Shown here: piece by piece, positions 3,993 to 34,052 of the stretch
Position numbering within the stretch: position 1 is the first letter of the stretch
How the letters are laid out: each line of letters begins with the position of its first letter
IMG/VR virus record: IMGVR_UViG_3300031521_000223
Coordinates: 1 to 34,052 of that record
Strand: one strand, 5' to 3'
DNA from: a virus
DNA: 34,052 nt
Made by a program: the position numbers and the translations under genes
Notes under the pieces: model-generated
Databases searched by the model: none
What the model was told of the DNA's origin: nothing
The model's input: the letters and a program-made list of their open reading frames with translations, nothing else

Positions 3993-4475
3993 TTATCTAT
4001 TAAAATTATGATAACTTTTTTGTTTAACCACTGTTAATGTATCAATAGAACTTTCTTGATTTATCTTTGCTTCTAACATTTTCCACTTCATTTTCCAAAC
4101 ATCAGTTTCATAACCCTTGGCTTCATAATATTCTAAATGACCGTCATTATGAGTTATAACAAAGTCAATAAAATAGTTAGTTATATGTTTACCATATGCT
4201 TGTAAATCAATCTTTACCTGTTTTTGTACGTCTTTTATATCACCACACTTTAATCTTAAATCTAGATCTTGTGCAACTTGACTTTCAAATTTACTATCAT
4301 AGTTGTATCCATTATATACACTTTTTTTAGCACCATATTTATTAAACGTCTTACCTATGACATGATCGCAATTAGTACAGGTTAAAGTACCACCTTTTAA
4401 CATCAGTCTTTTAGAATGACATTCGGGACATTCAGCTGACTTCATAGGGTCATTATTATTTATTTGTCTATACAT
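3993..4475 (-). CDS. DUF1064-like nuclease with N-terminal zinc ribbon, 160 aa
   Basis: Residues ~15-40 form a zinc ribbon (CPECHSKR...CTNCDHV; CxxC and CxxC). The following KYGAKKSVYNGYNYDSKFES, QKQVKIDLQAYGKHITNYFIDFV and YYEAKGYETDVWKMKW segments match the predicted nucleases of the DUF1064 family. Likely active-site residues are the E in DSKFES, the D in NYFIDF and the E/K in YYEAKG, a PD-(D/E)xK arrangement. A Holliday-junction resolvase-like or endonuclease role fits the preceding ERF, exonuclease and SSB-like genes. Last gene of the recombination operon; its ATG overlaps the previous stop (TAATG). Confidence 0.8.
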   Translation of the reverse strand: MYRQINNNDPMKSAECPECHSKRLMLKGGTLTCTNCDHVIGKTFNKYGAKKSVYNGYNYDSKFESQVAQDLDLRLKCGDIKDVQKQVKIDLQAYGKHITNYFIDFVITHNDGHLEYYEAKGYETDVWKMKWKMLEAKINQESSIDTLTVVKQKSYHNFNR

Positions 4476-4629: not shown

Positions 4630-4950
4630 TTAAAAAGGTATAGCACTTAAGTCTATTTGTTTATTCATATCATCATCTGTTGGTAATTTATCATTAAATT
4701 CCATATCCATAACTGTTTTTATCGGTAATAATGCACTATTTTCTTGTTTTTCTCTAGGATTAACATAAATACGACCGTCCCAGTTGTTATTTATTGGTAG
4801 AGTTTCGAGTTGCAAATACATATTTGAAAAATGTTCAGTAGCAAATAAAGTTCCAATAGTCATATATCTATTTTTCTTTTTACCATCTTTTTCATATTCA
4901 CCAGTTTTTACTCTTAAATCAGCATATGGTTTTGGATAATTTTCACTCAT
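4630..4950 (-). CDS. Putative single-stranded-DNA-binding (SSB-like) protein, 106 aa
   Basis: The sequence is beta-rich (ADLRVKTGEYEKDGKKKNRY, IGTLFATEHFSNMYLQLETL, WDGRIYVNPREKQ), consistent with a small OB-fold. It ends in DLSAIPF after an acidic stretch (LPTDDDMNKQIDLS). That resembles the D/E-rich -IPF tail that SSB proteins use to bind partner enzymes. Position directly after a YqaJ exonuclease and ERF protein in the same operon supports a recombination role. It is shorter than typical bacterial SSB (about 170 aa). The fold assignment is by pattern only. Confidence 0.6.
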   Translation of the reverse strand: MSENYPKPYADLRVKTGEYEKDGKKKNRYMTIGTLFATEHFSNMYLQLETLPINNNWDGRIYVNPREKQENSALLPIKTVMDMEFNDKLPTDDDMNKQIDLSAIPF

Positions 4951-5714
4951 TAAAATGCTAACTCCACTGCTAATTCATTTACTTGTATCAATATTGCGTC
5001 TTCAAATGCTCTTAATTCTTTAATATCTTCGGTGATATCTTCACGTTTAATATTAAACTGTAAATAAGGTAACGCTGGCATAACATCGGTATACATTACA
5101 AAATGTAATTCTTCAAGTTTTTCGTTTACAATAAAATATTTGACAATTTGTTCGTGATATTCAGTTGGATAATGTTTTTCATCATAAGCCCTAATCATTC
5201 GGTGGCTATCTAAACATTTAACCTCAACAGCTTCTTTGTCAAAATCTATTGTTGCATCTGGACTTAAAATACTATCTTTATTATCGTCTCGTTCCCATAC
5301 TACACTTGTCCCAATAACTACTTTACCAGTACGTTTAGTAAACTCTTTGATTGCTTCTGGCTCTAGTAAGTGACCACGAGTCATCATGCTAAACTTTTGA
5401 CCGTCCAACTGATCTTCGTAATCATTAGGTGTAATAGGTCGTGCAATACGTTCAGCAACTAATTTATAAAAAGCGTCTTTTTTATCACCTTGAGCCTTAA
5501 TATTACCAATATCTTCTGACGTTAGCATCTCAATTACTAATGCAGCGCTAAGTTTTGGATTTACTTCAACGTTTTTACTCATTAAATAACTAATTGCAGT
5601 TTCTTTAGTGATAGTTCGTGCTGGATATAGATCATGCAACCCACTTCCACCAGATTTACCTTTACGAAATTCTAACCATTCCTCAGTATTTTGCTCAATA
5701 TTTATAATTTTCAT
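4950..5714 (-). CDS. YqaJ-type viral recombinase exonuclease, 254 aa
   Basis: The N-terminus EQNTEEWLEFRKGKSGGSGLHDL is the typical YqaJ opening (xxWxxxRxGxxxxS). The lambda-exonuclease-type active site is visible: E118/E120 in GHLLEPEA, D153 in SPDATID, then E164 and K166 in AVEVKCLD, with Q189 in YHEQIVKY. It would resect double-stranded ends 5' to 3' and hand the single strand to the annealing protein encoded upstream. ATG 5714 overlaps the ERF stop and the gene ends at the SSB-like start, giving the compact ERF-exonuclease-SSB module. Length is normal for the family. Confidence 0.9.
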   Translation of the reverse strand: MKIINIEQNTEEWLEFRKGKSGGSGLHDLYPARTITKETAISYLMSKNVEVNPKLSAALVIEMLTSEDIGNIKAQGDKKDAFYKLVAERIARPITPNDYEDQLDGQKFSMMTRGHLLEPEAIKEFTKRTGKVVIGTSVVWERDDNKDSILSPDATIDFDKEAVEVKCLDSHRMIRAYDEKHYPTEYHEQIVKYFIVNEKLEELHFVMYTDVMPALPYLQFNIKREDITEDIKELRAFEDAILIQVNELAVELAF

Positions 5715-6298
5715 TATGCGGACTCCATAAATTCTAGTTTTTTAATATCTTTAGCAGTTATAACTTTTGGATTAAGTGCTAGTTGCTTCAAGCTTCCAAA
5801 TACTTTTTTTAGTTCGTCCATGCTTTTTGCATTTTCTAAATTTTCAATTGATTGTTTAATTGCACCATTTTCTTTAATTTTATCAGCTTTATTACCAATA
5901 CTATTTGCTAAATTTCCGTCATCATCAGCATCTACTAATAAATCTAACATTGCGATATATGAATATCGTTTCATATAGGTTATAGCAGAACCTTGAGATT
6001 GTGGATCATTTTCTTTATGAGTTAATGGCGTAATTGATGAGTAAAACTGTCTTGATGATTTATGGGTCAACTTTGTGTATATACCTGCTTTTCCAGTCGA
6101 TTCAATCACACAAGTAGATTGTTTAACTTGTAAACCATGCTTTTGGAGTCCTGGACGGCATTGAGATACTACATGGTTATAGTCAACATATTTATTTTTT
6201 AAAAATGGATTTTCTTTTGTTGCTTTTACAAAACCTGATTCGTCTTGAAATTCTTCAAGTGCAATATCTAATAATGTCGTGTCTTCACTTTGTTGCAT
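5714..6298 (-). CDS. erf: ERF-family single-strand annealing protein, 194 aa
   Basis: Matches the ERF superfamily: YVDYNHVVSQCRPGLQKHGL near residues 38-57, a central beta sheet (YTKLTHKSSRQFYSSITPL), and the diagnostic GSAITYMKRYSYIAMLDLLV segment followed by DADDDGN. ERF proteins anneal complementary strands and are used by phages for RecA-independent recombination and genome circularisation. It is shorter than many homologues (about 200 aa is usual). It overlaps the upstream 48-residue gene (TAATG) and the exonuclease downstream, and is driven by P4. With no other recombinase visible, it is also a candidate for acting on the inverted repeats in the fibre region. Confidence 0.9.
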   Translation of the reverse strand: MQQSEDTTLLDIALEEFQDESGFVKATKENPFLKNKYVDYNHVVSQCRPGLQKHGLQVKQSTCVIESTGKAGIYTKLTHKSSRQFYSSITPLTHKENDPQSQGSAITYMKRYSYIAMLDLLVDADDDGNLANSIGNKADKIKENGAIKQSIENLENAKSMDELKKVFGSLKQLALNPKVITAKDIKKLEFMESA

Positions 6299-6444
6299 TA
6301 TTTTAATTCCTCAATTATTTTATTAGCATATTCTTCTGCTATTTTGTCGGTAGTAATATTTATATCGTTCATTTTTTCAAGCGCAAAAGTAAGCATTGCT
6401 TGAGCAACGTAACTCTTAACTAATACTTTATTAATTTCGTTCAT
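6298..6444 (-). CDS. Small helical protein of unknown function, 48 aa
   Basis: First gene of the recombination operon, starting MNEINKVLVKSYVAQAMLTF after leader CAACTGAAAGGATTTTACC and ending ...ANKIIEELK in a TAATG overlap with the ERF gene. Fully helical in character, with no motif I can name. The strong ribosome site and exact coupling make it a convincing gene despite its size. It may be an exonuclease or annealing-protein accessory factor. Confidence 0.75.
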   Translation of the reverse strand: MNEINKVLVKSYVAQAMLTFALEKMNDINITTDKIAEEYANKIIEELK

Positions 6445-6475
6445 GGTAAAATCCTTTCAGTTGATTTATGTACTA

Positions 6476-6504
6476 AGTATAACGCATGCTAATGGTTTTT
6501 ACAA
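6476..6504 (-). promoter_or_regulatory. Early promoter P4 with CATTAGCAT spacer box
   Basis: Minus strand: TTGTAA (6504-6499), 17-bp spacer AAACCATTAGCATGCGT, TATACT (6481-6476). The leader AAATCAACTGAAAGGATTT then runs to ATG 6444. This is the closest of the four to consensus geometry and drives the recombination module. Confidence 0.85.
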
Positions 6505-6731
6505 GTACATTATTTAATAATTTGTGTGTTATAATTAACCCAAACAAGCTTAGAACGTTGATATCTCTAAAAAGATTTTAATCCTTTCACTCTGGGCTTG
6601 TTTTTATTTGGTTTACGTTTATAATTTAAGTATTATCAAACTTACTAAACCGATGGGCTTTAGAGATGAGATGATACGCACCTTAATCACAGTTACATTA
6701 TCATAAAATATATACCCTATATTATTGTGTG

Positions 6732-6770
6732 AAATATCCCCATGTTACATTACTAGGGGATATTTTATTT
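6732..6770 (+). terminator. Strong hairpin, probable terminator
   Basis: A perfect 10-bp stem AAATATCCCC (6732-6741) with GGGGATATTT (6756-6765), a 14-base loop, then TATTT on the plus strand. It can end plus-strand transcripts. On the minus strand the T-tract is weaker. Confidence 0.6.
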
Positions 6771-6812
6771 GTTGCAAAATGTTTATTAATACACTATTAT
6801 AGATATATCTGC

Positions 6813-6894
6813 TTACCACGTCGAAAATGGTAATCAGAACATAAGAGGTAAGTAAAAGAGCCTCGTTAGAAGCTCTTTCAGTTACCACGTCGAA
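6813..6894. repeat. Two direct repeats TTACCACGTCGAA flanking a hairpin
   Basis: Exact 13-bp copies at 6813-6825 and 6882-6894, start-to-start 69 bp. The first is followed by AAATGGTAA, which pairs with its own TTACCA. Between the copies lies a hairpin AAAGAGC ... GCTCTTT (about 6855-6879). Confidence 0.8.
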
Positions 6895-7022
6895 TTACTT
6901 TAATTATAGCAATTCTTCGAAACTTATGCAATAGTGCTGCAGCACATCATCAACTAACGCTCGCACGTTGGTATTATTAACTGAACTAATTTGGGATTAT
7001 TAAATTTATTTTTTATCTCACA

Positions 7023-7071
7023 ACTAGTTACTAGTAAATAGAAACTAGAAATTACAAACTAGTTAACTAGT
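7023..7071. repeat. Phased ACTAGT repeat cluster upstream of the plus-strand genes
   Basis: ACTAGT occurs at 7023, 7030, 7058 and 7066, with a near copy ACTAGA at 7044. Spacing is close to multiples of seven (7, 14, 14, 8). The last two form the palindrome AACTAGTTAACTAGTT. Located 18 bp before the gene at 7090, this is probably an operator or iteron array. Confidence 0.65.
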
Positions 7072-7089
7072 TGAAAATAAGGGGGTGTA

Positions 7090-7332
7090 ATGGACATAAA
7101 AAAACTAGATAATAGGCTTACAAGTTTAGAAATTAGGGTAAGAGTTTTAGAACTAGGTAACGGTTTATTAAGCGTAGATTATCCAAATGATATGACTGGT
7201 TGGTATTGTTTATGTTATAAAAAACTAGGAGAAGTCAAATTTGCGATCGTTGCGTCAATGGCTAGACAAGGTAAAAAGCCGAAAGCATTATTCGGTTGGT
7301 TACTGAAACAAGAAATGATGAAAATAAAATGA
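7090..7332 (+). CDS. Plus-strand protein of unknown function, 80 aa
   Basis: Starts MDIKKLDNRLTSLEIRVRVL after an AAGGGGGTGTA ribosome site (short spacing). The first ~22 residues look like a short coiled coil, followed by VDYPNDMTGWYCLCYKKLGEVKF and a basic C-terminus (RQGKKPKALFGWLLKQEMMK). One of only two genes on this strand, expressed away from the early operons behind the ACTAGT cluster, so a regulator or early-late switch is plausible. I recognise no DNA-binding motif. Confidence 0.7.
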   Translation: MDIKKLDNRLTSLEIRVRVLELGNGLLSVDYPNDMTGWYCLCYKKLGEVKFAIVASMARQGKKPKALFGWLLKQEMMKIK

Positions 7333-7547
7333 ATGATAAACACAAAGGTCTAAGTAAAAGTTCAAAGAAAAACAAATTCACAATTCCTATGACATGCGAT
7401 GATCGTGCATGGCCTACAGAAAAAAGATTAGAATGGGGTGAACGATCTAAACAAACTAATGAACAAATAGACTCTAAACATGCCACTAAACCGTCTACGA
7501 AGCCCCAGGACGCGTTTTGTGTCGGTAAATGGATACATATTATTTAA
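7329..7547 (+). CDS. Plus-strand basic protein of unknown function, 72 aa
   Basis: ATG 7329 overlaps the preceding TGA (ATGA), arguing for translational coupling and against the upstream in-frame start. Reads MNDKHKGLSKSSKKNKFTI, lysine-rich at the N-terminus and probably disordered, with PMTCDDRAWPTEKRLEWGE in the middle. Function unknown. The hairpin downstream probably ends this two-gene unit. Confidence 0.65.
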   Translation: MNDKHKGLSKSSKKNKFTIPMTCDDRAWPTEKRLEWGERSKQTNEQIDSKHATKPSTKPQDAFCVGKWIHII

Positions 7548-7550
7548 AGC

Positions 7551-7581
7551 AAAAACCACGCTTTAAATACGTGGATATATT
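7551..7581. terminator. Bidirectional terminator between converging units
   Basis: CCACG (7556-7560) pairs with CGTGG (7570-7574) around a CTTTAAATA loop, with an A-rich left flank and T-rich right flank. It lies between the end of the plus-strand pair and the end of the minus-strand late operon. Confidence 0.5.
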
Positions 7582-7693
7582 TGCCTGCGCTATAAATGGT
7601 GAACTGCGTAAATATTAATACTTTATTTTATTAAATACAAGACCATTATTAAATTTATGCACCAATTATTGAATAATAATAACTTCGCTCATA

Positions 7694-10082: not shown

Positions 10083-11132
10083 TTATGCTGCCCAAACAGG
10101 TAAACCACCTGCTGATATTGTAAGTTTTGTGCCAGGCGCTCCAGCAGCTAATCGTGTTAATAATCCAGCAGCGTTTCGGTAATAAATATCACCAGTTGCA
10201 TCTGAACCAATTGCCATAATAGTAGTTCCAATTAAGTCTGAAGTAACAGCCATATATCCAGTTCCAGTATTAATACCACCACCAATAGTATTACGACTAT
10301 ATATAGTAACCGATGTTCCACAAGCAACAGGAGCGCCAGATGCTACAGATATAGCATTATTAGTAATTAAATTTGGCACTGTCGTTGCACCGTTATTGCA
10401 TAAAACACCACCACCTGTACCTAAGTTTGTGATTATGCAGTTAGCTATAATTAATTTACCACCAGTAGTAGAAGTAACTAATGGAGTTGATTTTGTTGCA
10501 TTTATATTATTATTTTCAATTAATATATATCCGTTTCCAGTAATTTGGCTAGTAATAGTACAAACAATAGCTAAAAATTGACCATTTGAGTTTACTGTTA
10601 TAGTTCCACCTAATAAACTACAACTTTTAATGTCAGTTAAACCATTTACCGTTATATTTCCAGTAACTGAACCACCATTAATAAGAACTCGTCCAATAGA
10701 AGATGAACTAAATGTAGTTGTTCCAATAGTGTTTAGATCGTATCTAGTAAAATTAGGATTTTGAACAGTTAAGCCATTGGTATAAGTAATAGTTGAACCA
10801 TTGCCATAAGATACTATAGGATAATTAGGTAAAGTAACAGCACTATCTTCTGTATAAGTACTAGCAGCAATATGTAATGAACTAGCTTTAGTTATAGAGC
10901 TTAAAGAACTTGATATGGTTTTAAATGGTCTATTTATGCTACCATCTGGTGTATATTCATCAACTCTATTCCCGTCAATATAAATATCAACCGAGGTAAC
11001 TGAACTTAACGATGTGTTTGATGGTAATTTTACGGACGGACTTTGGCTAAAATCAACCGATTTTTTAGTATTAAGACCATGTTTTTTTACTGCCCATAGT
11101 ATATTTTCGATTAAAGTTGATTTTGATGCCAT
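10083..11132 (-). CDS. Tail fibre/spike with right-handed beta-helix, 349 aa
   Basis: After a short N-terminal head (MASKSTLIENILWAVKKHGL) comes DIYIDGNRVDEYTPDGSINRPFKTI, the usual lead-in to pectate-lyase-like beta helices. About 200 residues of short beta repeats rich in T, S, N, G and I follow. The C-terminus APGTKLTISAGGLPVWAA is a common fibre tail. It probably forms trimeric fibres that bind or cleave host glycans; no catalytic residues can be assigned. Its own promoter (11186-11157) lies between it and the invertible cassette, so it is expressed regardless of cassette orientation. AAAGGGGACAAT precedes ATG 11132. Confidence 0.78.
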   Translation of the reverse strand: MASKSTLIENILWAVKKHGLNTKKSVDFSQSPSVKLPSNTSLSSVTSVDIYIDGNRVDEYTPDGSINRPFKTISSSLSSITKASSLHIAASTYTEDSAVTLPNYPIVSYGNGSTITYTNGLTVQNPNFTRYDLNTIGTTTFSSSSIGRVLINGGSVTGNITVNGLTDIKSCSLLGGTITVNSNGQFLAIVCTITSQITGNGYILIENNNINATKSTPLVTSTTGGKLIIANCIITNLGTGGGVLCNNGATTVPNLITNNAISVASGAPVACGTSVTIYSRNTIGGGINTGTGYMAVTSDLIGTTIMAIGSDATGDIYYRNAAGLLTRLAAGAPGTKLTISAGGLPVWAA

Positions 11133-11156: not shown

Positions 11157-11186
11157 ATTATCTCATATTCAATAACAATTAGTCAA
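11157..11186 (-). promoter_or_regulatory. Promoter of the beta-helix fibre gene
   Basis: Minus strand: TTGACT (11186-11181), 18-bp spacer, GATAAT (11162-11157) with an upstream TGA making an extended -10. It overlaps an AATTAGT/ACTAATT hairpin (about 11178-11196) that directly abuts the left 49-bp inverted repeat. Confidence 0.65.
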
Positions 11187-11196
11187 AAACTAATTT

Positions 11197-11245
11197 AATA
11201 TTGAATCTCTAGCTACTGGTACTGGTATTGGTGATAGTTCAGTGA
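11197..11245 (+). repeat. Left 49-bp inverted repeat of the fibre cassette
   Basis: Starts AATATTGAATCTCTAGC and ends GATAGTTCAGTGA. Its exact reverse complement is at 12101-12149; identity stops on both sides (T versus A before, C versus T after). It encodes NIESLATGTGIGDSSV in frame with the following silent domain. Confidence 0.95.
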
Positions 11246-11673
11246 CTCCTGCAAAATTATCAGAACTTGGAACTTGGAATAATACTATAATTCCATTTTT
11301 CCCTACTTCATATGTTGGAGTGTGGATGATAACGGCATTTAGTAATCAATATGCAGGTCAGTCGTATTATTGTACAGATGTACAAAATTCAGAAGTTGCA
11401 TATAAAGAGTTTATGCAAGCAGGGACATATTCAATAAGTATATTTTGTACTAAAGACGTTAATAGGGGTATATGTACTATATTAATTGACGGTGTTAGTG
11501 TTGGTACTTTGGATATGGCTGCTGGTTCAGCATTATATAACCAGATTTTAACTCTTTCGTCTATAACAGTAGCCACTTCTGGCGCTCATACAATAACATT
11601 TAAAATGGCTACCACATCAACAGGCCATTATTATATGACATTATCATTTATTAATATTAAGAGAACAGCTTAA
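11197..11673 (+). pseudogene. Silent alternative C-terminal domain of the tail fibre (plus-strand cassette)
   Basis: An open frame with no ATG, ribosome site or promoter: NIESLATGTGIGDSSV from the repeat, then TPAKLSELGTWNNTIIPFF... to TAA at 11671. It is homologous to residues 48-188 of the adjacent minus-strand fibre protein; both share TILIDGVSVGT(L/I)D and are near-equal in length (142 versus 141 residues after the repeat). The domain looks like a beta-sandwich receptor-binding or carbohydrate-binding module. It would be expressed only after inversion of 11197-12149, when it joins the constant 47-residue N-terminus in frame. It is a stored domain, not a decayed gene. Confidence 0.88.
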
Positions 11674-11675
11674 TA

Positions 11676-12242
11676 TTAATTAGTTCTCCAAAACGCCATT
11701 TGCCCAAGTGCTATACCATATCCTGTAGAACTAGAATTTTTAGATGCTGAAATTATTGAAATTGTATGTCCTCCAGATGCAATAGTTATTCCTGTTATAG
11801 TTCCTATTTTATTTACTATGCTACTTGGAGAATAAGTATCTATAGTTCCAACACTAACACCGTCAATTAATATAGTAGCAGTACCTCTATCTCGGTTGCT
11901 ATCAAACTTCATTCTAAATGTATAAGTTCCACCAGAAAAATTAGCTAAATAATTTATTCTATCATTTAAAACTAATCCAAAATTCCAAATATATTCGTTA
12001 TATGGTTGTTCTGATAAAGTTGCGCCCATTGGAGCCCAATTTCCTTGAGTTATACTTGAATACATATACGAGTGTAATTCGATATGTTGTGATTTAAATA
12101 TCACTGAACTATCACCAATACCAGTACCAGTAGCTAGAGATTCAATATTTTCTACAAGATTATTAACTTCTTCTGCTGTTAAAATAGCAAATGGCGAAAA
12201 ACTCATCGCTGGGTTTGGTAGATTACCTGTTCCTGTTGCCAT
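11676..12242 (-). CDS. Tail fibre / receptor-binding protein, currently expressed allele, 188 aa
   Basis: N-terminal ~47 residues (MATGTGNLPNPAMSFSPFAI ... through the repeat) form the constant part, likely for attachment to the tail. Residues 48-188 are a beta-rich domain (FSGGTYTFRMKFDSN, ATILIDGVSVGTIDTYSP, SGGHTISIISASKNS) resembling jelly-roll binding modules. The right inverted repeat covers codons 32-47. TGAGGAGTAAATA precedes ATG 12242, and an extended -10 promoter lies at 12287-12295. The homologous, inverted silent domain is at 11246-11673. Host-receptor switching is the obvious role. Confidence 0.82.
   Translation of the reverse strand: MATGTGNLPNPAMSFSPFAILTAEEVNNLVENIESLATGTGIGDSSVIFKSQHIELHSYMYSSITQGNWAPMGATLSEQPYNEYIWNFGLVLNDRINYLANFSGGTYTFRMKFDSNRDRGTATILIDGVSVGTIDTYSPSSIVNKIGTITGITIASGGHTISIISASKNSSSTGYGIALGQMAFWRTN
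12101..12149 (-). repeat. Right 49-bp inverted repeat of the fibre cassette
   Basis: Exact reverse complement of 11197-11245. Read on the minus strand it encodes residues 32-47 of the expressed fibre protein, so recombination anywhere inside keeps the frame. Confidence 0.95.
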
Positions 12243-12286
12243 TATTTACTCCTCATTATAATTTCAGATGATATATTCATAGTTAC

Positions 12287-12334: not shown

Positions 12335-12790
12335 TTACCAAGTAAAAGTATTATATAGGTCAGAAGTATAAATATTTTTATCAGATGAAAAATAATTTAT
12401 TAAGTATGACAGTGTTGATTGTACATTTACGTCAGTAAATTTATCTGGATATTGGTTTTTAAGATACTGATTAATAAATTTATAAATTTGTGGTCTTTGT
12501 ATAAAATTTTCTAACATTATCTGATTATAATCTTTAATAATAGGAGTTGGAGTTTGAGTTACGGTATCAACTGGTGTTTCTTCTGGTATTTTCGATTCAA
12601 CTATCGGTGCTGTTTTGACTGTATTATCAGTTTTTTCAACAGTCACTTCAATAGGTTTATTATTAGTTGACATAACTATATAATTGTTAGGCTTAGTCTT
12701 AATAATGGTTTTTTTACTCATGTTTATAAACGAAAATATCCCTACTAATATAATTATTAATGCTATTGCAAAAATCAATTTTCTTTTCAT
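12335..12790 (-). CDS. Membrane-anchored protein of unknown function, 151 aa
   Basis: Basic start MKRK, then one hydrophobic helix (LIFAIALIIILVGIFSFIN). An extended proline/threonine-rich spacer (PIVESKIPEETPVDTVTQTP) leads to a helical C-terminal domain ending ...YTSDLYNTFTW. This is a signal-anchor with a projecting domain. The ribosome site is weak. It sits among tail genes, but the anchor suggests host-envelope insertion during infection, for instance superinfection exclusion or lysis control. I do not recognise the C-terminal domain. Confidence 0.65.
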   Translation of the reverse strand: MKRKLIFAIALIIILVGIFSFINMSKKTIIKTKPNNYIVMSTNNKPIEVTVEKTDNTVKTAPIVESKIPEETPVDTVTQTPTPIIKDYNQIMLENFIQRPQIYKFINQYLKNQYPDKFTDVNVQSTLSYLINYFSSDKNIYTSDLYNTFTW

Positions 12791-12820: not shown

Positions 12821-13252
12821 TCAATTGAATGGTGACAAAAATGTAACAATATTAGCGACAACAGTTTGATATCCGCTAGTTATTCTCATATCTACACCCT
12901 CGCCATAACTGTAAAATATACTATATAGACGTATTTGAGTAGATGAGCTTCTAGATATTATTACAGGTAAATTATGTGTAAATGTATCGACTGGGGTACC
13001 AAATTGATATACTGTTATAGTTACTGGTACTAAAATTCCCAAGGCGCACCAAATATCAGATGAACCACTTCTAGCAATCTGTCCTCTTAATGAGGCATTG
13101 ATAGTACCTAACGTTATATAAGATTCATATAATTTAGATTGACCAAATGCCAATAATCCACTGTCGCCAATATATAAAGATATAGAACCTTTATTATCAT
13201 TTTTTAGTGAGGCATAATCTGATGATTGTATAAAATTACTTGGTTTTGTCAT
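12821..13252 (-). CDS. Probable tail-tip structural protein, 143 aa
   Basis: Begins MTKPSNFIQSSDYASLKND, a motif common at the N-terminus of small phage tail-tip proteins, followed by a beta-rich body (GSISLYIGDSGLLAFGQSKL, VTITVYQFGTPVDTFTHNLP, STQIRLYSIFYSYGEG). The start overlaps the stop of the upstream 210-residue gene. Low charge and many S, T, Y, I residues suit a virion surface protein. No specific function assignable. Confidence 0.65.
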   Translation of the reverse strand: MTKPSNFIQSSDYASLKNDNKGSISLYIGDSGLLAFGQSKLYESYITLGTINASLRGQIARSGSSDIWCALGILVPVTITVYQFGTPVDTFTHNLPVIISRSSSTQIRLYSIFYSYGEGVDMRITSGYQTVVANIVTFLSPFN

Positions 13253-21998: not shown

Positions 21999-23894
21999 TT
22001 AAGATTCTGCTGGGAACTGTAGCAATACAAAACTGCTGTTCAAGATTGGTTTACCTGTGATGTCAATATCAGCACGAAGTGCAGATGCATCTTGAGTAAA
22101 CAAATTCAATGATCCAACAGTTGCTTCACGGCTAAACAAAGTAGCAAGTTGTCCACGAGTTACAAGGTCATAGTCTGCAAAGTTACCAATAACTACATCA
22201 CCGTCAGCTAAGACTTGTGAAATAACTACGTTAAATGTACCTAATGCACCAGCTGATACTTGTGTACCAACAATTGTGAATACAGGACGACCAAAGTTGT
22301 CAAGACTAGTAGCTAATTGACCCCAAGTTGAACGGTTTACTGCGATTGATATTTGGCCATCAGTTGCAACTAATCCGTAAGCTTGTCCAAGTGCAGGTAT
22401 AACGTCAATTGCGTCATAACTTGGAACAGATACAACACGACCAGCAGTAGTCAAGATAGGAACTAACCCAGTAGCAGGACGAGCTTCACCATTATAAGTA
22501 CCGCCAACGTAAGTTAAGATGATCTTATCTTCTAAGCGCATATATTCTTTAGCAATGTAAGCAACGATTGAGTTATATACAGCGATTGGTGAACGTTTTT
22601 GTACACCGTCTAACCATGCAACGATTAAAGCCCACTCGAATGGTTCAAATACGGCAGGTGTAAAGACTGGTTGATCTTCACTCTTAACAGCACCAATAGA
22701 TACAGGAGCGAATCCAGCACCACTAGTTTCGACTAATTGTCGGAATGTTTCAGCACCATCAATGTCAATCTTAGTTACTAAAGCTGCAACACCACCTAAT
22801 GCTTCGTACTTAATACGAATATCGGTTGCAAAAATTTCTGGTGCATACATTGGAGCGCCAGTAGTACCATCAATAACCATCTTTGCTAGTTCAGCATTAA
22901 TAGCTTCGACTTTGTTAGTATCTTTACTATAGATTGCTCCAAGTAAATCAACCATTTTAACTCGTGCTTCACGCTTTGTAGCAGTTGGAGTTAAATTAAC
23001 TGGTGCTTCTGGTTGTGAAGCAATTGGAACAATAGAAGCTAATGCGATAGCATCTTGTTTTTCTTTGTCGTTCATTTCTTTATCCTCTTCATTGACTGGG
23101 TTAATTTTAGCAGAGTCTTCAGTCTCTTCTTCATCTGCTAGTTCGACTATATCAGTCTTAGTTTTGTCTTCGACTACCTCTTCAGGTATTACTTCTTGAG
23201 TTTCCTCAATTGGTTCTGTCTTTTCGACAGGTTTTTCTGGTTCGGCTTCTTCTTTGGCGATATACTTTCCCAAAGAATCATGTATCGACATACTAAACGC
23301 AAAATTTTCAGTTGTAAACATTGATTTAATCTTTGCAAAAGCAGTAGGTTCATCACCTAAAATATTATCTGCAAAACCAAGTTCAACTGCTTTTTCTGGA
23401 GACATCCAAGTCTCTTCTTCTAGTAATGAAAATATTTCTTCTTTACTACGTTTTGTTCGCTTTTCATAGATAGGTATTATTGTATCCTCTATCTCTTTTA
23501 GCATATCTATAGCTTTACTAAGGTCTTTTATGTTTCCCTGTGCTAGTACGAGTGGTCTGTGAACCATCATAACTGAACCAGGAGACATTAAAATCTTATC
23601 TCCAGCCATAGCAATAACGCTAGCCATCGAAGCTGCTATTCCATCAACTCTTACAGTAACTTCACCATTGTAAGCCCGTAAAGCGTTATAAATTGCTGCA
23701 CCAGCAAAGACTTCACCACCTGGACTGTTTATGATAACAGTAATAGGTTTACCATTTGCTTGTTTAGATAGTTCATATCTCAGTTGGTCTGGGGTATATT
23801 CATCTCCCCAAAAACTTTCTGATGTTATGACTCCCTCTATAACAATCTCTGCGGATTTGCCATCGGTTGATTCCTGCATAAGCGGTTTAATCAT
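21999..23894 (-). CDS. Fused ClpP-like head maturation protease and HK97-fold major capsid protein, 631 aa
   Basis: Residues 1-190 are an S14/ClpP-type prohead protease: INSPGGEVFAGAAIYNALR, catalytic S89 in DGIAASMASVIAMAG and H112 in MMVHRPLVLAQG, then EETWMSPEKAVELGFAD, where E161 replaces the usual Asp-like position. Residues ~213-270 are a very acidic linker (EEAEPEKPVEKTEPIEETQE...) like a scaffold. Residues ~275-631 are the capsid domain (ATKREARVKMVDLLGAIYSK, APEIFATDIRIKYEALGGVA, TGKPILNSSFVLLQFPA). An internal ATG (codon 274, 23075-23073) has AAGAGG seven bases upstream, so the capsid may also be made separately. An extended -10 promoter lies at 23958-23966. Confidence 0.88.
   Translation of the reverse strand: MIKPLMQESTDGKSAEIVIEGVITSESFWGDEYTPDQLRYELSKQANGKPITVIINSPGGEVFAGAAIYNALRAYNGEVTVRVDGIAASMASVIAMAGDKILMSPGSVMMVHRPLVLAQGNIKDLSKAIDMLKEIEDTIIPIYEKRTKRSKEEIFSLLEEETWMSPEKAVELGFADNILGDEPTAFAKIKSMFTTENFAFSMSIHDSLGKYIAKEEAEPEKPVEKTEPIEETQEVIPEEVVEDKTKTDIVELADEEETEDSAKINPVNEEDKEMNDKEKQDAIALASIVPIASQPEAPVNLTPTATKREARVKMVDLLGAIYSKDTNKVEAINAELAKMVIDGTTGAPMYAPEIFATDIRIKYEALGGVAALVTKIDIDGAETFRQLVETSGAGFAPVSIGAVKSEDQPVFTPAVFEPFEWALIVAWLDGVQKRSPIAVYNSIVAYIAKEYMRLEDKIILTYVGGTYNGEARPATGLVPILTTAGRVVSVPSYDAIDVIPALGQAYGLVATDGQISIAVNRSTWGQLATSLDNFGRPVFTIVGTQVSAGALGTFNVVISQVLADGDVVIGNFADYDLVTRGQLATLFSREATVGSLNLFTQDASALRADIDITGKPILNSSFVLLQFPAES
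23073..23089 (-). promoter_or_regulatory. Internal ribosome binding site and start inside the protease-capsid gene
   Basis: AAGAGG (23089-23084) then ATAAAGAA and ATG (23075-23073) on the minus strand, in frame (M274). It would yield a ~358-residue product beginning MNDKEKQDAIALAS that covers the whole capsid domain without the protease. Confidence 0.6.
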
Positions 23895-30929: not shown

Positions 30930-31042
30930 TTTATAGTTCTAACTATTATATCTTTTTTCAATTCCTGCAACGTTTTATCGTACTCAAATCCTAAATTAAA
31001 TCTCTCAAGCTTTGATAGTTTACTCGTAGTAAATCTTTCTTT
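30926..31042 (-). pseudogene. 5'-truncated reading frame beside RNA 2
   Basis: A 38-codon frame KERFTTSKLSKLERFNLGFE... to TGA, with coding character (charged helix, EYDKTLQELKKDIIVRTIK) and ATGA coupling to the next gene, but preceded by TAA and with no ATG, GTG or early TTG. The missing 5' end is where the closing stem of RNA 2 lies (31056), so insertion of the RNA element may have removed the start. Confidence 0.45.
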
Positions 31043-31049
31043 TTAAATA

Positions 31050-31650
31050 ATAATTAATTAAGTGTATGGTGCGATAAACAAGGTGACGGACTTCCCCAAT
31101 AGTGGCTCGTTCTTATGCCTTTCGGCGGGAGCAATCTGTCCTAGCGCCCTGTAAGTCGGTAAAGGCGGCCAATCGAGCTTCAATGATTCACAATTATTTC
31201 ATGCTTCACTCTGCTCTAATCCGTTGTTCAACTTACTTTTTATCCACTACGGTCTCACCTAGATACCCGTCATCTGCTAGTTACCCTCTGGGTTAGCTAA
31301 TTCCCATACTCTACCTAACATCGGGGCAGGCCTTGCTTGTATATTTACCGCACTACTACGCTTAATTGTTAATGTACTAATTCATACAGTACAGCTGGTA
31401 ATAAGCGACAATAGGCGTGTAGCGACGCCTCGTTTTACATCTTGTCCAATGCCTTACAGAGCGGTGTTAATCCGCACTGGGCAGCTCTGGTCTTGCCCGC
31501 ACCATCTGTAACTATAAGCTACAAAGTACCAAACAAGTTCTCGTTCTTATTACCATGTATACTGTATGAATTTTTAAAGTTCTTAGTTCAGTTGCCAGCG
31601 AGGTGAATCACTATGGACTTAATGGGCAACTTAGATTCCTATCAAGATTC
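31050..31650 (-). ncRNA. Structured non-coding RNA 2 (~600 nt)
   Basis: A gene-free, locally less AT-rich stretch behind an extended -10 promoter. Pairings read on the minus strand: AGTTGCC/GGCAACT (31631-31625 with 31596-31590); a long stem TTCATACAGTA + TGGTAATAAG with CTTATTACCA + TACTGTATGAA (outer arms 31570-31546 and 31405-31381); inside it GGGC/GCCC, GAG..GCGG/CCGC..CTC and GGCGT/ACGCC hairpins; and a closing stem 31367-31336 with 31082-31056. The last two elements are in the same order as in RNA 1. Size and multi-helix layout resemble phage-borne giant RNAs such as GOLLD or ROOL; I cannot confirm membership. Confidence 0.75.
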
Positions 31651-31657
31651 TGTAACT

Positions 31658-31666
31658 ATTATACCA
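31658..31666 (-). promoter_or_regulatory. Extended -10 promoter for RNA 2
   Basis: TGGTATAAT (31666-31658) on the minus strand, overlapping the last codons of the 70-residue gene. Transcription would begin about 31650, just before the first hairpin of RNA 2. Confidence 0.6.
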
Positions 31667-32507: not shown

Positions 32508-32845
32508 TTGCTCCACCCCACTTTTATTACATTAACTGGTGCATTTTCGAATAATGGTTCAATTTCTTCTCTAGAATATCCCGCAATTCCTTGACCTATA
32601 GGGGTTAATAGAAATGTAAACTCTGGTAATAAAAATGCTACACGTTTGAATTGTTCTACATAGCGCTTAATTTGTTCTATACCGCCCATAGTTGGTATTG
32701 CATAAGATTGTCCTTGTAGACCCGAACCAACTCCCCAGACTGCACCAAACTGTTCTACGGCTTGTTTAGCGGCACCACCTGCATGTATTCCCCCTAGGTT
32801 AGAACCAAATACAAATATCTGATTTGTTTTTAAATTATCAATCAT
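32504..32845 (-). CDS. Macro-domain-like protein (A1S_2505-type), 113 aa
   Basis: Signature NQIFVFGSNLGGIHAGGAAK-QAVEQFGA and SYAIPTMGG, then FLLTPIGQGIAGYSREEIEP-LF, matching the phage-associated macro-like family (FVFGSN-x-x-G-x-H-x-G-GAA). Such folds bind or process ADP-ribose derivatives; the phage role is unknown, possibly defence against NAD-based immunity. It overlaps the alanine-repeat gene (ATGA) and the winged-helix-like gene. Confidence 0.82.
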   Translation of the reverse strand: MIDNLKTNQIFVFGSNLGGIHAGGAAKQAVEQFGAVWGVGSGLQGQSYAIPTMGGIEQIKRYVEQFKRVAFLLPEFTFLLTPIGQGIAGYSREEIEPLFENAPVNVIKVGWSK

Positions 32846-33525
32846 TTTATCTCTTCCATAACTTCAGTACGTCTTAAAACCCATTTATGAACTCTAATCT
32901 TAACTTTTAATAATGCTGCTGCGTCTGCGTCTGCTGCGTATGCTGCGTGTGCTGCTGCGTGTGCTGCGTATGCTGCGTGTGCTGCGTATGCTGCGTATGC
33001 TGCGTCTGCTGCGTGTGCTGCTGCGTATGCTGCGTATGCTGCGTATGCTGCGTATGCTGCGTCTGCTGCGTGTGCTGCTGCATATGCTGCGTATGCTGCG
33101 TATGCTGCGTCTGCATTTTCTTTAGTTTGATTTTTTAAATATTTATTAGCTGATTGAATAGCTAATCGTGGCCGTCTGTCGCCTGGATATTTATCTTCAA
33201 ATATTTTAATAACTAAGTTAGCTGAAAAAATTGCTAAAGCAACACTATCATTTTTTGTCCATTTGTAGGCTTTTATAATAGTCATATTTCTAGATGCGAA
33301 CTTATCATCGTCTACTACTAAATCACTAGCTTTAACTATTGCGAAAACATCACCTTTGACATACGACAATGCGTCAATAGATAGCATTGATGCGTGAAAA
33401 CCGTTATTACATAGTTCTATAATGCCTTTAACTGAATATTCTTTGCCGATTTCCCAAGTTTGATTACCATGTTCTGATTTTATTTTTCCATTTTTTAAAT
33501 TTAGAAACTTATAAGCTGTAATCAT
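32842..33525 (-). CDS. Alanine-repeat protein with DUF7666-like N-terminus, 227 aa
   Basis: N-terminal ~75 residues (AYKFLNLKNGKIKSEHGNQT ... IIELCNNGFHASMLSIDALS) resemble DUF7666-like domains, with the C-x-NGFHAS core. Then a region to ~135 is followed by ~67 residues of AAYAAYAAHAAD-type repeats (codons GCA-TAC/CAC/GAC-GCA), which should form a long alanine helix. The end is basic (ALLKVKIRVHKWVLRRTEVM). It follows the pentapeptide gene via TAATG. Both neighbours carry a CxNG(F/I)H motif followed or preceded by low-complexity repeats, suggesting paired function. Confidence 0.78.
   Translation of the reverse strand: MITAYKFLNLKNGKIKSEHGNQTWEIGKEYSVKGIIELCNNGFHASMLSIDALSYVKGDVFAIVKASDLVVDDDKFASRNMTIIKAYKWTKNDSVALAIFSANLVIKIFEDKYPGDRRPRLAIQSANKYLKNQTKENADAAYAAYAAYAAAHAADAAYAAYAAYAAYAAAHAADAAYAAYAAHAAYAAHAAAHAAYAADADAAALLKVKIRVHKWVLRRTEVMEEIK
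32916..33120. repeat. Alanine-codon tandem repeat
   Basis: Repeated GCAxACGCA units (9-12 bp) on the minus strand encoding AAYAAHAAD. Low complexity; the other frames look open and produce spurious Cys-, Leu- and Gln-rich frames. Confidence 0.9.
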
Positions 33526-34052
33526 TAGTAATTTTCTGCTTCCAATTTCGTTATGAAAAAGTGAATACCGTTAGAGCATTCATCAGTCCAATTTTTATCG
33601 AAACTATCTGGAGTTACTCTTTCGCCAACTTTATATTTAAAATCTCTATCATTTTGACTAATTGCTGTTTTATAACTTTTGCCGTTTTTAGTTATTTCTA
33701 ATACATCAGCATATTCAGCACGGCACTTACGTCCAAAGGCATGTGATCTTTTAGCTTCCGCTGGTATAGATAGTTTAACAATTTTATCGTCTGAGCATTT
33801 TTTGTAACCAATAATATTTCCCTCTGGTAATATACGAGTCATAGCTATCGCATAATCGGCATCTTTTGCACCTCGTAGGTCTGCACCTTGTAGGTATGCA
33901 CCTTGTAGGTATGCACCTTGTAGGTATGCACCTTGTAGGTATGCACCTTGTAGGTATGCACATCGTAGGTCTGCACCTTGTAGGTTTGCACCTCGTAGGT
34001 TTGCATCTTGTAGGTCTGCACCTTGTAGGTCTGCACCTTGTAGGTATGCATC
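33525..34052 (-). CDS. Pentapeptide-repeat protein, C-terminal part (joined to 1-399)
   Basis: Frame open from the right end: ...ADLRGAKDADYAIAMTRILP... to TAA 33525. From about residue 165 of the joined protein, ILPEGNIIGYKKCSDDKIVK, IPAEAKRSHAFGRKCRAEYA and SNGIHFFITKLEAENY match the DUF5758-like C-terminal domain found after pentapeptide repeats in phages. Bases 33930-34052 duplicate 1-123; after removing them the frame at 33929 continues exactly from position 1. The joined product has 267 residues: leader, beta-helix of ~30 pentapeptides, and this domain. The stop overlaps the start of the alanine-repeat gene (TAATG). Confidence 0.88.
   Translation of the reverse strand, partial: DAYLQGADLQGADLQDANLRGANLQGADLRCAYLQGAYLQGAYLQGAYLQGAYLQGADLRGAKDADYAIAMTRILPEGNIIGYKKCSDDKIVKLSIPAEAKRSHAFGRKCRAEYADVLEITKNGKSYKTAISQNDRDFKYKVGERVTPDSFDKNWTDECSNGIHFFITKLEAENY
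33870..34052 (-). repeat. 15-bp pentapeptide repeat array (right part) with right terminal repeat
   Basis: About twelve 15-bp units as at the left end; 33930-34052 is the right copy of the 123-bp terminal overlap. Non-overlapping units total roughly 23 across the join. Confidence 0.9.

Follow-up and report, generated by a model that had tools for sequence, protein, structure and literature searches.

Can a virus with a 34-kb genome exchange the receptor-binding end of a small tail protein by inverting the DNA that encodes it, and which recombination pathway would do so? The question is raised by an uncultured bacterial virus known from a metagenome collection, whose record of 34,052 bases is analysed here over its full length (the window). 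In our main reading, to which we give a probability of roughly 70%, positions 11197-12149 are an invertible cassette with two states, which determines the C-terminal domain of a receptor-binding protein at the phage tail tip; this domain probably binds glycans.

The record carries a small siphovirus-like gene set, with Terminase_3, portal, a 908-aa tape measure, a 518-aa tail protein and a CHAP lysin. A ClpP-like head maturation protease is fused to the major-head-protein region in one 631-aa ORF (21999-23894), and a gene of Arthrobacter phage Uzumaki is also annotated as a capsid-protease fusion. The genome is likely to be circular, although the 123-bp direct terminal repeat is not independent proof of this, since it lies inside a 15-bp tandem array. 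That array, present at both ends (1-292 and 33867-34052), encodes a pentapeptide-repeat-like protein across the would-be circular junction. A second, 9-bp tandem array with a 57-bp higher unit (32925-33114) gives rise to an Ala/His/Tyr/Asp-rich repeat in the 227-aa ORF 32842-33525. Little obvious coding sequence was seen at 6299-7693 and 30930-31658 (~1.4 and ~0.7 kb) in this compact genome, an 89% inverted repeat is found at 31379-31405 and 31546-31572, and Rfam and tRNA searches of the record gave no match.

Anatomy of the cassette

The inverted repeat at the edges of the cassette is exactly 49 nt long and 100% complementary, with arms at 11197-11245 and 12101-12149 and 855 nt in between. 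Comparison of one arm with the other by BLAST gave E=3.9e-20, and comparison of the flanks showed no further homology beyond either end of the arms. The repeat sits within the coding sequence of a small tail-tip gene, a 188-aa ORF on the minus strand (12242-11676) located downstream of the tail genes. The right arm (12101-12149, minus strand) corresponds to codons 32-47 of the expressed gene and encodes NIESLATGTGIGDSSV; the left arm (11197-11245, plus strand) consists of the identical 49 bp, inverted, and has the same product in the same frame. The 31 codons that precede the right arm (12150-12242, minus strand) lie outside the repeat and encode a constant N-terminal adaptor, MATGTGNLPNPAMSFSPFAILTAEEVNNLVE, which is conserved in relatives. 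The start codon and a ribosome site, GAGGAG at 12249-12254, are also outside the cassette.

Two domains are arranged tail to tail inside the repeat, with their stop codons 2 bp apart. Domain A (11676-12101, minus strand, 141 aa and a stop codon) is the one joined to the adaptor as recorded, the last base of the repeat entering its first codon. Domain B (11245-11673, plus strand, 142 aa and a stop codon) is silent as recorded, its sole start codon of its own being a GTG within the repeat arm, and would come into frame with the adaptor upon inversion. When the segment was inverted in silico, an uninterrupted N-B ORF was obtained from the gene's own ATG, reading MATGTG...NIESLATGTGIGDSSVTPAKLSEL...NIKRTA and ending in a stop codon.

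This anatomy agrees in most respects with an earlier sequence-only reading of the locus. The perfect 49-bp inverted repeat which it described was borne out in length, complementarity and position, and by BLAST; the reading frame said to run through both repeats is indeed shared, as both arms encode the same peptide and the inverted gene is free of stops in silico; and the two homologous C-terminal domains of 141 and 142 residues, in opposite orientation inside the repeat, are supported by their sizes and by BLASTP homology. Of the elements that it had placed outside the cassette, the constant N-terminus and the ribosome site are clear in the sequence, whereas the promoter is not: the region upstream of 12242 has a single promoter-like hit, a weak one (9/12 matches), and such hits are no commoner than in shuffled sequence.

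Beside the left arm, and outside it, lies another promoter-like box (11157-11186, minus strand), with 10/12 consensus matches, a TG extension and a hit count not above chance. This box would serve the next gene (10083-11132, minus strand) whatever the orientation of the cassette. That gene is itself outside the cassette and encodes a 349-aa tail-like protein with a weak PHROG tail match (E=8.7e-4); because it has its own ribosome site, and the box lies outside the left arm, it need not be affected by inversion.

Recombination pathways

In the switch that we propose, the two 49-bp inverted repeats would recombine and so flip the segment, after which the constant adaptor would be joined in frame to B and no longer to A, and the displaced domain would be kept reversed, without adaptor, start codon or ribosome site. 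We infer that such inversion occurs in nature.

The enzymes usually associated with inversion were searched for in the record, and neither a resolvase-family serine recombinase (PF00239) nor a tyrosine recombinase (PF00589) was matched at E<=1, while positive controls were. Sites of the gix/cix/dix type are 26-bp palindromes; by a simple consensus test, the best such match in the repeat covered 6/14 consensus bases with no unusual dyad, and no dif-like site was matched in the repeat by a crude consensus test. The record does encode an Erf-family single-strand annealing protein (5714-6298, minus strand; Pfam ERF E=1.2e-21, and PHROG), a YqaJ/RecE-like exonuclease (4950-5714, minus strand; Pfam YqaJ E=4.5e-12, and PHROG) and a DUF1064 or Holliday-junction-resolvase-like nuclease (3993-4475, minus strand; PHROG 190 E=1.5e-21, and Pfam DUF1064). 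Because recombinases and their sites were undetected and these three genes are present, we favour homologous inversion via the 49-bp arms, which would proceed by the phage Erf/YqaJ pathway and/or host RecA and not through a site-specific recombinase that the host supplies in trans. Erf would then be the candidate recombinase for inversion and the YqaJ/RecE-like exonuclease its candidate partner. This preference calls for caution: among the 15 relatives described below, several of which are fragmentary records, an Erf match was found in only one, the nearest by adaptor, and the literature offers both a bifidophage inversion with no recombinase alongside (PMC6109161) and pneumococcal hsdS inversions that proceed without RecA (PMC6620402).

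The main rival to homologous inversion is the same switch flipped by a site-specific recombinase in trans, supplied by the host or by a co-resident element and acting at a crossover site within the repeat. Such enzymes are the norm at phage inversion loci, and service in trans has been suggested for a bifidophage locus that has no recombinase next to it (PMC6109161). The repeat in the window nevertheless showed neither an unusual dyad nor a gix-like or dif-like match, crude as these consensus tests are. Its 49 bp also exceed typical crossover cores, which are shorter, and we consider action in trans rather unlikely.

The silent domain, its likely function and its relatives

Beyond the repeat, A and B are homologous (BLASTP E=1e-17, 42% identity across 86 aligned residues) and highly divergent (dN 0.83, dS 1.09), and at such a distance dN/dS alone shows no strong constraint on B. 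The open frame of B is not due to chance; when composition-matched random sequences were generated, 0/20,000 were open for 142 codons. Scored by codon usage, the B frame reached 0.336 bits per codon, compared with 0.358 for A, 0.17-0.49 for the phage's other genes and -0.54 to 0.17 for the remaining five frames of B, and B agrees with the phage in both GC3 and codon usage. B thus appears to be under constraint, mainly on the grounds of its intact frame, its codon use and the perfect arms.

These properties bear on the possibility that the locus arose by a one-off inverted duplication or recombination, the second domain being a frozen reservoir with no back-and-forth flipping. Such an origin would fit with the single orientation observed, and with the evolution of the relatives, which proceeds through C-terminal domain replacement and is accompanied by rearrangement of the tail-tip region. 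Decay would be expected of a dead copy, but B has an open frame and normal codon usage; moreover, mismatch-free arms beside far-diverged A and B require that the arms either formed recently or still recombine with each other. A frozen reservoir is unlikely in our view. The cassette is known from a single metagenome virus record, but an assembly or amplification artefact fusing two phage variants is highly improbable, as it requires false joins at two places, precisely at the edge of the repeat and between two stop codons, and as B matches the phage in GC3 and codon usage and is linked to A by a 30-bp tract of identity. An amplification chimera in particular was rejected, since it would yield inverted copies of the same sequence, but A and B are only ~40% identical.

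The 30-bp tract is a perfect inverted match nested within the cassette, between 11475-11504 (plus strand, in B) and 11848-11877 (minus strand, in A), in the region encoding TILIDGVSVG. Identical codons make up 10/11 of this tract, compared with 16/33 at the other shared A/B residues, for which codon usage predicts 15.1; that ten shared residues should all have identical codons has a chance of ~1e-4. The tract is likely to be a trace of past homologous exchange or conversion between A and B. Because its frame is equal in both domains, recombination at this point would produce in-frame A/B hybrids. We tentatively put forward, as a possible extension of the two-state cassette, a switch that needs no invertase, in which Erf/YqaJ would recombine the long in-frame repeats, the nested 30-bp identity would lead to in-frame A/B chimeras, and the locus would both switch tips and give rise to new ones.

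Regarding function, the carbohydrate-binding module MiXBM (PDB 7ehg) was matched by protein A at E=2.9e-5 and by a joint profile of A and B at E=3.9e-7; in PMC10881899, 7ehg appears alongside the xanthan lyase of Microbacterium sp. XT11. In Foldseek searches, the models of A and B, which are of low confidence (mean pLDDT ~53), were placed among beta-sandwiches of the CBM6/35/36 type, with E down to 4.5e-6. Known phages gave a single and distant hit for B, located in the tail-gene region of Arthrobacter phage Uzumaki at the C-terminus of its gene 18, and no match when searched with protein A or with the adaptor. Judging from these sequence and model matches, the likeliest role of A and B is that of a glycan-binding receptor domain, and both would be expected to bind host-surface sugars. 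As the tail-tip protein matched no Pfam or PHROG family, it is a putative tail fibre on the grounds of position, adaptor modularity and fold, and by the same three features the variable domain may be a host-binding determinant.

The modularity of the adaptor was seen in related viral contigs, of which 15 were collected via the 518-aa tail protein and 8 via the adaptor, in overlapping sets. By tblastn, the adaptor (~45 residues) is present in 10 of the 15, and one contig, L031, was found through the adaptor alone. The C-terminal domains which it bears in relatives are mostly unlike A and B; those of nine relatives form five groups by BLASTP (L006/L020, L007/L031, L009/L023, L018/L021 and L019) with no similarity between groups, the A/B pair of the window apart. 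As the same adaptor is followed by five dissimilar C-terminal groups, its end is a site of tip exchange in this phage group.

No inverted repeat comparable to that of the window was found near the tail tip of relatives, and the exact 49-bp repeat was found in no other viral contig, in a search that may omit near-identical records. IMG/VR held no relative of the whole of protein A or of B, and a host search of 84,980 prokaryote genomes with the adaptor and the 518-aa tail protein gave no match. Among the contigs searched, neither an N-B allele nor a relative with the same repeat was observed. The in-frame exchange of receptor domains which had been anticipated from the sequence is upheld in its logic, by anatomy, coding potential and fold. 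The database homologue proposed as a check, with the other domain on the same N-terminus and hence in the swapped state, was not found. On the strength of the anatomy, coding-potential and fold results, a swap in host recognition is the best explanation of the locus.

In the relatives nearest by adaptor, L019 and L010, the junction that follows the conserved block, GIGDAAITPSKIS, is closer to the B-state junction GIGDSSVTPAKLS than to the A-state junction GIGDSSVIFKSQ. Compared with the profile of the relatives, the gain over the adaptor alone is ~6 bits for the B state and ~1 bit for the A state, which modestly supports the idea that an N-B gene once existed. Pairwise tests of the post-repeat sequence against single relatives gave P=0.04 (L019) and P=0.044 (L021) for the B state, uncorrected for nine comparisons, and were given little weight because these values are weak before correction.

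Gene order and strand downstream of the 518-aa tail protein vary among L006, L007, L009, L010/L019, L020, L021 and L023. The elements that vary are a small signal-peptide-like gene (12335-12790 in the window), homologues of the genes at 12821 and 13249, and the adaptor gene; the adaptor gene is inverted in L023 and the 12821/13249 homologues are inverted in L020. Judging from this variation, the tail-tip region of these relatives seems to invert and shuffle readily in the course of evolution, and no inverted repeats were detected in it.

Comparison with known inversion systems

The cassette had been likened to the fibre switching of Mu and P1. The architecture is indeed that of the Mu G segment and the P1 C segment (Gin, Cin) and of the Min shufflon of p15B, with a constant N-terminus outside and opposed alternative C-termini inside, and, as in the Mu/P1 systems, the inverted repeats lie within the coding frame and inversion leads to an in-frame fusion. 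The defining parts of Mu/P1 switching, however, are a serine invertase (Gin or Cin) and crossover sites of the gix/cix type, and searches for both found neither here, so that we do not class the cassette as a Gin/Cin system. It has instead 49-bp homology arms, and occupies 0.95 kb in a 34-kb genome.

Other systems share part of this organisation. The Rin shufflon of bifidophages also exchanges the C-termini of a receptor-binding protein after a constant N-terminus, with an adjoining tyrosine recombinase and 11-bp rix sites (PMC6109161), whereas a tyrosine recombinase and rix-type sites were not found in the window. The haloviruses phiCh1, phiH1 and ChaoS9 similarly carry two inversely oriented tail-fibre copies, but their modules contain a recombinase gene (PMC6471424), and no tyrosine recombinase was found here. 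In the spnIII hsdS locus of Streptococcus pneumoniae, specificity domains are swapped through inverted repeats of 15, 85 and 333 bp that lie inside the genes, and switching persists without known site-specific recombinases, the hsdS inversions having been shown to be RecA-independent (PMC6620402); these, in contrast, are bacterial restriction-modification genes.

The closest described case is the ~500-bp inversion of the bifidophages Bb423phi2 and 689b-1, in which the 3' end of a structural-region gene is exchanged with no recombinase at the locus, and both orientations are seen in related prophages (PMC6109161). That inversion involves 8-bp repeats and genes of unknown function, whereas the cassette described here has 49-bp arms and homologous carbohydrate-binding-like domains.

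The best reading is that the cassette operates in the manner of Mu/P1 switching, with no invertase resident in the phage. If this is true, phase variation of receptor binding would be achieved without a dedicated invertase in less than 1 kb, and surveys that look for invertases adjoining invertible segments would miss such cassettes. In other phages they could be sought by the combination of in-frame inverted repeats in a tail gene with two homologous domains placed tail to tail. With no dedicated flipping enzyme found in the genome, the cassette would be a pared-down form of a strategy already known for host change.
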